A stretch of 64,000 bases of DNA from assembly GCA_016235165.1 (NCBI GenBank), contig JACRLX010000007.1:248001-312000 (forward strand), read 5' to 3'. The stretch is from Rhodocyclales bacterium. GTDB taxonomy: Bacteria > Pseudomonadota > Gammaproteobacteria > Burkholderiales > Rhodocyclaceae. The translations under genes and the position numbers were made by a program. Shown piece after piece: positions 21,967 to 27,544 of this stretch; position 1 is the first letter of the stretch; the number at the start of each line of letters is the position of its first letter. The notes under the pieces are model-generated. The model did not search any database and had not been told where the DNA came from. It saw only the letters and a list, made by a program, of their open reading frames with translations.

Positions 21967-23106
21967 TCAGAACAGCTCTTCTTCGCTCAGCGTCTCGAGC
22001 ATGGCTTCGACGCGGATACGGAAGGGGCCGATGGGGTTGGTGATGTCGAATTCGAGGAACAGGGTCGGGATGCCGTTCTTCTCCAGGTGCTCCTTGAGGT
22101 CCGGATAGTCGCCCTCGTGCGGATCGCAGAACTTCTGCTGCAGGAAGATCGCGGCGCGCGCGTTGTAGTCCTTGGCCAGACCCAGCACATGATCGAAGCG
22201 GGTGTGCGCCGGGTAGTCCTTGGTCGGGCAGGCCGGACGATCGCAGTAGCGCTCGGCGATGCGCTTGACCGGGTCGGCGTCCTTCATCGACTCGTTCCAG
22301 AAGTAGCGGGTGCCCGAGCACTGGTCGTCGATGACGATGGTGGAACCGACCGACTCGACCATGGCCATGAAGGCGACGTCGTCGTTCTCCGAGCCGATGG
22401 TCATGAAGCGCACGCCTTCCTTGCGGTCCATCGGGCGGCTGGGCAGGGCGGCGAGCACCTTCTTCAGTTGCTCGTTGTGTTCCTTCTTGTCCACGAACTG
22501 GGCGGTGAGCGAGGCATACAGGGCTTCGACGCCGGTGACCTTGGGGTTGGCTTCCTTGCGGTAGTCGAAGAGCTGGCGCAAGAGGCGGCGGTTCTCGTCG
22601 ACCACGTCGGTGGCTTCGTGCAGCATGGCATCCGTGAGTTCCTTGCCGGTGAGCGCCGAGAGGAAGGTGCGGAAGGCCTGGATTTCGGCGTAGTGGGCCT
22701 TTCTGGCATGCGGGCTTTGCACGTCGTTGGGCATGGGCACGTAGTAGTCCCACTTGACGCTGGGCACGTTGCTGCGCCAGGAGCTGAAGGTCTGGCGGTA
22801 CTGGATGCAGGACTGGGTCAGGGTCACACCCTCGGCATAATCGAAGCGGCCGAGCAGGCCCTGGGCCAGGGAATCGCGGCAGAAGGGACAGAACATGCCG
22901 AAGATATGGGGCTCGGTGACGTTCTGCGGTTCGTGGGCGCCCAGCACGCGCACCGGCAGCATGCCGGCGGCGATCAGCAGCTCTTCCGCGGTATAGGTAC
23001 ACATCGTGGCCACCACCTGGCCGCCGGTACGCGCTTTCCAGTCGCGGGCGTAGTCGTGGCGCTTCTCATACCAGTCCTTGAACTGGTCGAACAATCCATC
23101 AGCCAT
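21967..23106 (-). CDS. bzdN: Benzoyl-CoA reductase catalytic subunit BzdN
   Basis: 379-residue HgdB/BcrC-family subunit and the first gene of the operon. Features: [19 protein letters not shown] near residue 35, [19 protein letters not shown] near 73 (probable cluster ligands), and [18 protein letters not shown] near 325. AGGAGG lies about 7 nt before the ATG. It is transcribed away from bzdR from the 318-bp intergenic control region, which contains candidate BzdR operators and an FNR-like box. Confidence 0.95.
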
Positions 23107-23253
23107 TGCTGCCTCCTTTGTTGTCCATCCGCCGCGAGGGTCGCCGCAGATCGATCCGTCTTGATAAGGTAGGAACTATTGTTCCTTGTCTGAACCATAC
23201 TGCACAACCTGGAGCGAGTATGTACGCCGAAAACCACCCTGTCAATAGCGTCA

Positions 23254-23267
23254 TGCATTATTGTGCC
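23254..23267. promoter_or_regulatory. Candidate BzdR operator 1 in bzdN upstream region
   Basis: TGCATTATTGTGCC, identical at 12 of 14 positions to the site at 23375-23388. BzdR-family repressors are known to bind TGCA-containing palindromes. It lies about 150 nt upstream of the bzdN start codon. Confidence 0.55.
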
Positions 23268-23355
23268 GCAGTACGCCAAGCAGCATTACTTAATGTTTTA
23301 TAACGAGTTATTGTGTTTTGTATGGTAAATTAGCGTTTGCTAAAATTAAAAACAG

Positions 23356-23369
23356 TTGACTTTTATCAA
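23356..23369. promoter_or_regulatory. Candidate FNR/AcpR box
   Basis: TTGACTTTTATCAA matches the FNR consensus TTGAT-N4-ATCAA at 9 of 10 defined positions. In Azoarcus the bzdN promoter needs the FNR-like activator AcpR under anoxia. If the site is centred at -41.5, bzdN transcription would start near 23321, leaving a leader of about 215 nt. The box also covers the -35 element of the opposite bzdR promoter, so one protein could activate bzd and block bzdR/box. Confidence 0.6.
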
Positions 23370-23385
23370 ATTGATGCACTATAGT
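23356..23385 (+). promoter_or_regulatory. Predicted bzdR (and box) promoter
   Basis: -35 TTGACT at 23356-23361 and -10 TATAGT at 23380-23385, spacer 18 nt, about 40 nt ahead of the bzdR start codon. The operator palindrome 23375-23388 covers the -10 element, as expected for autorepression. Confidence 0.6.
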
Positions 23386-23388
23386 GCC
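23375..23388. promoter_or_regulatory. Candidate BzdR operator 2 over the bzdR -10 box
   Basis: TGCACTATAGTGCC contains the perfect 12-bp palindrome GCACTATAGTGC (23376-23387). It overlaps the predicted bzdR -10 element and is nearly repeated at 23254-23267. Confidence 0.62.
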
Positions 23389-23424
23389 TGTACCGTCACT
23401 TCACCGCAAGTGAGGGACAAACAA

Positions 23425-24327
23425 ATGGATACCACGACCAAGGCCCAAACCACCGCCACCCCGGCCCTCCACGACGAGGCCGCCGATGCCGAATTCATCG
23501 CGGCACTGGGCAACCGCGTGCGTGAGGCGCGGGCCAGGCGCGGCATGTCGCGCAAGGCGCTGGCGCTAAGCTCGGCGGTGTCGGAGCGCTACCTGGCGCA
23601 GGTCGAAAGCGGCGAGACCAATCCCTCGATCATGGTCCTGCGCCATGTCGCCCATGCCCTGGGGATCTCGCTGATGGAATTGATCGAATCGCAACAGGGC
23701 TCGAATGAATCGCGCCTGATCGCCCGCTTCCTCGAACAGCTCTCGCCCGCCCGCATGGAAGACGCCATGCTGCGCCTGATGCGCGACTTCGGCAGCGAGG
23801 ATGCCGCGCGCCGCCGCCGCATCGCCCTGGTCGGCTTGCGCGGCGCCGGCAAGTCCACCCTGGGTCGGGCACTGGCCACCGAGCTCGAACTGCCCTTCGT
23901 CGAGCTCAACAACGCGATCGAGGCCGAGGCCGGCATGCCGCTCAACGAAATCTTCATGCTCTACGGCCAGCCCGGCTTCCGCCGCCTCGAACGTCGCTGC
24001 CTGGAGAACATCGTCGCCCAACACGAAGCCGCGGTAATCACCGTCGGCGGCGGCATCGTCTCTGAAGCCGAGACCTTCAACCTGCTGCTGATGAACTGCT
24101 ACACGGTCTGGGTCAAGGCCAGTCCGGAAGAACACATGTCGCGTGTCGTCGCCCAGGGCGATTTCCGCCCCATGGAAGGCAGTGCCGAGGCAATGGAAGA
24201 CATGCGCCGCATCCTGGTTGCCCGCGAATCGCTGTACAGCAAGGCCGATTTCACGCTCGACACCACCGGCCGCACGCCGGAGGAATGCCTCACCCAATTG
24301 AGAAACACCGTCACCCCCAACCCCTAG
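23425..24327 (+). CDS. bzdR: BzdR/BoxR-type transcriptional repressor (HTH plus shikimate-kinase-like domain)
   Basis: 300 residues. The N-terminal XRE-type helix-turn-helix (about 26-85, with SERYLAQVESGETNPSI) is joined to a shikimate-kinase-like effector domain (about 132-300) whose nucleotide loop GLRGAGKST is at 137-145 and which has TVGGGIVSE. This is the unusual architecture of Azoarcus BzdR and BoxR, which respond to benzoyl-CoA. The ATG at 23425 follows GAGGGA; an upstream in-frame extension lacks a ribosome site and would start inside the promoter. The gene is divergent from bzdN and 34 nt upstream of boxC, so it may serve both pathways. BzdR versus BoxR identity cannot be settled by eye. 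Confidence 0.93.
   Translation: MDTTTKAQTTATPALHDEAADAEFIAALGNRVREARARRGMSRKALALSSAVSERYLAQVESGETNPSIMVLRHVAHALGISLMELIESQQGSNESRLIARFLEQLSPARMEDAMLRLMRDFGSEDAARRRRIALVGLRGAGKSTLGRALATELELPFVELNNAIEAEAGMPLNEIFMLYGQPGFRRLERRCLENIVAQHEAAVITVGGGIVSEAETFNLLLMNCYTVWVKASPEEHMSRVVAQGDFRPMEGSAEAMEDMRRILVARESLYSKADFTLDTTGRTPEECLTQLRNTVTPNP

Positions 24328-24361: not shown

Positions 24362-26032
<1,671 letters not shown>

Positions 26033-26072: not shown

Positions 26073-27544
<1,472 letters not shown>

Follow-up and report, generated by a model that had tools for sequence, protein, structure and literature searches.

The window, which is the whole 64-kb stretch of DNA that we analysed, contains genes of two benzoate routes that flank a gap of 318 bp between bzdN, read leftward from an ATG at 23106, and a regulator gene read rightward from an ATG at 23425. 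In keeping with a preliminary description of this DNA, bzdN and bzdO lie to the left of the gap and a BzdR/BoxR-type regulator followed by boxC and boxB to the right. In a profile scan both bzdN and bzdO were far above the cut-offs of curated models, and the regulator also matched shikimate-kinase and helix-turn-helix models. The genes are:

21967..23106, minus strand: bzdN, benzoyl-CoA reductase bzd-type subunit N (TIGR03190, 823 bits against a cut-off of 453.8)
23425..24327, plus strand: BzdR/BoxR-type regulator with an XRE-like helix-turn-helix and a shikimate-kinase-like domain (NF006015, 407 bits against a cut-off of 204)
24362..26032, plus strand: boxC, 2,3-epoxybenzoyl-CoA dihydrolase (TIGR03222, 974 bits)
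26073..27544, plus strand: boxB, benzoyl-CoA 2,3-epoxidase, in two frames because of a 47-bp tandem duplication (TIGR03225 on both pieces)

The regulator is the sole over-cut-off copy found in the genome and therefore probably serves both directions, so that the rightward promoter and bzdN would have it in common. The duplication in boxB (26827-26920) is a tandem 47-bp unit with starts at 26827 and 26874 that shifts the frame. A different contig of this genome carries a second boxB (G000:C8, L081), which is missing 50 bp at the same point, beside a stretch identical to the repeat. This suggests mis-assembly between the two copies and not a real loss. The genome also contains a second bzdN (L024, G000:C13:215429-216559) that encodes a protein 98.7% identical to that of the window; the bzdO beside it shares just 77% identity, and the flank examined showed no such regulator.

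For comparison we collected 41 loci of the genus (L001-L041) by two routes: a regulator scan of named contigs gave 10 loci, of which five carry the title Sulfuritalea and so identify the genus, and 31 genomes of the genus were searched for bzdN. bzdN is divergent from the regulator in 34 of the 41, which are all of the loci with an adjacent regulator. We left out six loci in which bzdN has no adjacent regulator (L012, L019, L024, L027, L033, L041), one with no true bzdN start (L037) and eight exact duplicates, and obtained 26 distinct intergenic regions, the window included. A consensus scan of 23060-23500 in the window recovered two sigma70-type promoters, a rightward one at 23356-23385 and a leftward one at 23245-23217, compared to a mean of 0.4 in shuffled sequence. 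Both score 10/12. The features of the gap, with their occurrence in the 26 regions where this was scored, are:

23172..23185, no strand: palindrome GGAACTATTGTTCC, likely a promoter-proximal operator (25 of 26 regions; NNNA-N6-TNNN layout as in the BoxR/BzdR site)
23190..23205, no strand: degenerate BoxR/BzdR-like operator CTGAACCATACTGCAC (11/16; A[CA]TGCA core in 26 of 26 regions)
23217..23245, minus strand: predicted bzdN promoter TTGACA-N17-CATACT with a start at about 23210 (consensus scan)
23253..23268, no strand: BoxR/BzdR-like operator ATGCATTATTGTGCCG (12/16; ATG.A.TATT in 26 of 26 regions)
23356..23369, no strand: FNR-type box TTGACTTTTATCAA overlapping the rightward -35 (9/10 to the FNR consensus)
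23356..23385, plus strand: predicted promoter of the regulator, and probably also of boxCB, TTGACT-N18-TATAGT (consensus scan)
23374..23389, no strand: candidate BoxR/BzdR operator ATGCACTATAGTGCCT over the rightward -10 (15/16 to ATGCACTATAGTGCAT of PMC6449761)

The predicted rightward promoter is formed by a -35 element TTGACT (23356-23361), a spacer of 18 and a -10 element TATAGT (23380-23385). The -10 is spanned by a perfect 12-bp palindrome, GCACTATAGTGC, at 23376-23387. In the part of their study available to us, Suvorova and Gelfand give ATGCACTATAGTGCAT as the main BoxR/BzdR motif (PMC6449761), and the fit of 15/16 to this motif indicates that the palindrome is an operator of a known type. 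An operator of this type covers the rightward -10 in all 26 regions of the genus with scores of 12-16 of 16, and the -10 itself reads TATA[GT]T in every one of them. Directly upstream of the -35 is an A-rich tract (23330-23355), TTTAAAAAAATATTT-like in many relatives, which we take to resemble an UP element.

The predicted bzdN promoter is conserved too. Its -35 in the window is a perfect consensus hexamer, and across the genus its elements appear as GTCAA in 26 of 26 regions and as AGTATG in 24, with AATTAT in the remaining two. In 25 of the 26 regions the top-scoring leftward promoter puts the start 99-110 nt ahead of the bzdN ATG; in L015 another placement scores best. Downstream of the predicted bzdN start, GGAACTATTGTTCC is letter-perfect in 25 of 26 regions and thus better kept than the main operator, and its centre is 19 bp from that of CTGAACCATACTGCAC. 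The shared layout points to GGAACTATTGTTCC as a likely operator with BzdR/BoxR as its putative binder.

The rightward -35 coincides with an FNR-type site. The box reported in the preliminary description, with nine of the ten FNR positions, was found letter for letter at 23356-23369. The box is centred at 23362.5, immediately beyond the -35 hexamer and ahead of the -10 in the rightward reading direction, which places it at about -30 from the predicted rightward start and across both the -35 and the spacer. The genome has a single copy of this exact 14-mer. In the 64-kb window there are two sites with one mismatch or none, compared to 0.73 expected, and two or more were found in 14 of 100 shuffles; an FNR-like site in the window, taken alone, is only moderately unlikely and not striking. 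A 9/10 site anywhere in the 318-bp gap has P = 0.015 (5000 shuffles). We also considered FNR as an activator of the rightward promoter and rejected this, since the start it predicts at about 23404 (41.5 bp right of the box) has no -10-like hexamer ahead of it in the window, as judged by eye.

The box is present in some but not all regions of the genus. TTGAC-N4-ATCAA in the same register occurs in 14 of the 26 distinct regions, and three others (L034, L039, L040) have a shifted box, TTGAT-N4-ATCAT, that is 6 bp nearer the operator and still in the core promoter. By comparison, shuffled regions with a 9/10 site averaged 0.6 of 26 and never exceeded 4 in 200 rounds, against these 17 of 26, a contrast between related regions to which no independent-sample P value applies. 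This conservation places the FNR-like site well beyond chance. Across the 14 same-register regions none of the ten half-site columns changes, and the four inner columns vary; these regions were picked for a 9/10 match, so each could depart at one position at most. All 14 depart in the same way, by having C as the fifth base, and this C also belongs to the -35.

Nine of the 26 regions have no 9/10 FNR box anywhere in the gap; one of them, L032, has an 8/10 site downstream of the operator. Because of these nine relatives, an oxygen switch at this position is not essential to the arrangement of bzdN and the regulator. boxC is usually the next gene after the regulator in those loci that reach far enough, with the exception of L007 and its duplicate L031, where other sequence is found. 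L007 (5001-9744) contains two regulators. The one facing bzdN has no FNR box, and the second (53% identical) is directly preceded by a TTGACA hexamer and two operator-like sites and followed by boxC. This layout suggests that the shared switch may have been split in L007.

The absence of the box from these regions raises the possibility that TTGAC has been retained as a -35 and that the remainder of the box reflects chance or shared ancestry, with no FNR-type protein acting. The P value for the gap leaves room for this, and so does the relatedness of the regions, many of the 14 same-register ones being close relatives. The regulator tree is poorly resolved; on it the 14 rows need five changes, at least two of them forced by well-supported branches, and L009 (with the box) and L010 (without it) are well-supported sisters. 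One aligned regulator, L017 (2973-3872), has an internal stop codon, and its row was retained in the tree set. However, ATCAA is fixed in 14 of 14 regions, within the limit set by their selection, while the four bases before it vary, and to judge from the box-less relatives ATCAA is needed by neither the -35, the -10 nor the operator. We therefore regard a site kept only as a -35 as unlikely.

We then considered which promoter the box would serve. The preliminary description had proposed a compact toggle in which FNR at the box activates bzdN leftward and at the same time blocks the regulator and boxCB. For bzdN this would be activation of class II (box centre at -41.5, start at about 23321), which predicts that a leftward -10 lies some 30-35 bp away from the centre of the box. 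In all 26 regions we scored the leftward -10 at the best FNR-like site and, for a position-matched comparison with the nine box-less regions, at matched and slid places. The best hexamer had a mean score of 3.5/6 where a box is present (17 regions) and of 3.8/6 at the corresponding place where it is absent (nine regions); slid places in the regions with a box gave 3.6/6, so there is no preference at the class II distance. In the window the hexamer at this place is GCTAAT (4/6), at roughly the right distance. The relatives L002 and L006 have it too, and in L011 and L026 the place is taken by TCTAAT and TATAAT, respectively. Direct activation also has a precedent in Azoarcus, where AcpR is described as acting at -41.5 of the bzd PN promoter in the available text of PMC6678401. 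Against this, bzdN has the separate conserved promoter described above, and its predicted start is about 152 bp from the centre of the box. No 9/10 box lies near bzdN in any of the 26 regions of the genus, where the only 9/10 sites are the 17 distant ones; the nearest weaker sites score 8/10 and lie 188.5 bp from bzdN in L008 and 17.5 bp from it in L009, L015 and L026. Because of the lack of a -10 preference and the presence of a separate conserved promoter, we rejected a class II FNR-activated bzdN promoter at the box, and we consider a toggle that includes direct activation of bzdN quite unlikely. Thus, what the preliminary description had observed is confirmed, and its interpretation is partly supported: the FNR-type site on the rightward -35 and spacer stands as a candidate switch, and the direct activation of bzdN does not.

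The genome encodes one FNR above the cut-off (L042, 255 bits against 228) with the iron-sulphur cysteines in a C-X2-C-X5-C arrangement and an ETVSR recognition helix. At least two further proteins of the Crp/Fnr family have ETLSR helices (L043, L046), and CX2CX5C was not seen by eye in L043. The protein that occupies the box could be one of these relatives rather than FNR. DNR-type proteins read the same motif, TTGAT-N4-ATCAA, and this together with the additional family members speaks for use of the site by a nitric-oxide- or nitrate-responsive protein of the DNR/NNR type, and not by an oxygen sensor. On the other hand, cluster cysteines are present in the sole FNR above the cut-off and some of the other sites in the genome precede classical FNR targets, leading us to consider a DNR/NNR-type protein very unlikely.

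These other sites come from a genome-wide search for TTGAYNNNNRTCAA, which gave 30 sites compared to three for the reversed pattern. We took 15 of the 30 as loci (L047-L061) and scanned 10 open reading frames of our choice beside seven of these 15; the listing of open reading frames placed the site inside an open frame in several of the 15. Plausible FNR targets beside scanned sites are ccoN, hemN and ubiU, each preceded by its site (with fnr on the other side of the hemN site), and a nirB-like gene. One half of the site at hemN/fnr and at ubiU is TTGAC, as in the window. Less clear neighbours are a PHA synthase, a malic enzyme and an oxidase-subunit-III-like gene, and three open reading frames had no match. 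An over-cut-off FNR is encoded by 28 of the 31 genomes of the genus; G002, G011 and G019, with assemblies that are 80-90% complete, gave only partial or weaker matches.

The reading that we favour, by a small measure, is a rewired oxygen switch of the repression type, in which an FNR-type protein would lower expression of the regulator and boxCB under anoxia and bzdN would benefit indirectly without being directly activated. By analogy with Azoarcus, where this has been published, a BzdR/BoxR-type repressor would occupy the ATGCACTATAGTGC operator over the -10 and be released by benzoyl-CoA. With oxygen present, FNR would be inactive and the rightward promoter would answer to the repressor and benzoyl-CoA alone. 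Under anoxia, the FNR-type protein would sit on TTGAC-N4-ATCAA across the -35 and spacer, centred at about -30, and exclude RNA polymerase, leading to lower levels of the oxygen-dependent epoxidase and of the regulator itself. The bzdN operon would be transcribed from its own promoter at about 23210, flanked by the further operators, with no activation from the box. Since active FNR would mean that less repressor is made, bzdN would be less repressed. Judged by geometry, the proposed anoxic block of the rightward regulator-boxCB promoter is sound. From the arrangement of sites we infer the binding, the direction of the effect and the indirect effect on bzdN.

Several observations count against repression by FNR as proposed here. 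The box is absent from nine regions even though most genomes of the genus encode an over-cut-off FNR, TTGAC alone is accounted for by the -35, and several of the seven scanned site loci lie beside non-classical FNR targets or genes with no family match. The question matters in facultative benzoate degraders, in which two routes, one sensitive to oxygen and one that requires it, start from a common intermediate. The 318-bp region joins both routes through one probable shared repressor and a site of the oxygen-sensor type, and so bears on how, or whether, oxygen selects the route. Natural relatives with the site (17 of 26) and without it (9 of 26) offer a ready comparison.

Outside the genus, control of bzd appears to be organised differently. 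We examined 19 loci (L062-L080) taken from the best matches among 51 over-cut-off genomes, a set of genomes that includes the genus itself. An FNR-type box of at least 8/10 was found 117.5-132.5 bp from the bzdN start in 18 of the 19 loci; the start of L080 is uncertain. The regulator is in tandem with bzdN in 13 of the 19, and none was seen in the flank examined of the other six. Boxes near bzdN together with a tandem regulator match the published Azoarcus PN promoter. The Azoarcus/Aromatoleum PN promoter resembles the Sulfuritalea region in that the structural genes and the repressor family are the same, and one intergenic region contains an FNR-type site and several operators, two of which, close to the bzdN start, are spaced by about 19 bp. 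In PN, however, bzdR lies upstream in tandem and the activating FNR/AcpR box is over the bzdN -35, about 118 bp from the ATG, whereas in Sulfuritalea a divergent regulator is the first gene before boxCB, the -35 of bzdN is a consensus hexamer, and the box belongs to the opposite promoter, at a distance of about 256 bp.

The BoxR divergons of Betaproteobacteria, in which boxR-boxCBA faces boxD-bclA, are similar in that the regulator is divergent and first in the boxCB cluster and has ATGCACTATAGTGCAT operators, as far as they are described in the part of PMC6449761 that was available; the main text contains no occurrence of 'fnr'. In contrast to these divergons, the Sulfuritalea counterpart faces bzdNO, the anaerobic reductase. 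According to the available text of PMC9765128, Aromatoleum aromaticum EbN1 forms the transcripts and proteins of the two benzoate routes under essentially all conditions tested. Oxygen control of box genes is therefore not a general feature of such physiology, which also counts against repression by FNR as proposed above; an oxygen-gated box promoter in Sulfuritalea would differ from this. The accessible portion of PMC10803450 names a benzoate-CoA ligase of Sulfuritalea hydrogenivorans as one of three in a group. For two of the three the gene context is described as a 'hybrid' of aerobic and anaerobic, and the adjacency of the two routes may thus already have been noted there. Literature titles and abstract openings, a body of text from which subscription papers were mostly out of reach, gave no description of this promoter in Sulfuritalea.

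It is possible, if doubtful, that control has been reversed in Sulfuritalea. The FNR-type site would have been lost as an activator site of bzd and set up as a repressor site for boxCB and the shared repressor, with one half-site doubling as the -35, so that anoxia would shut down the aerobic route and, through starvation for the single shared repressor, induce the anaerobic route. The ndh promoter of E. coli is an example of a promoter repressed by FNR. As at such promoters, the FNR-type site here overlaps the promoter and polymerase exclusion under anoxia is expected; unlike them, the -35 and one FNR half-site are the same five bases, and an operator that would respond to an inducer covers the -10. 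The Sulfuritalea region is a new arrangement of known parts.
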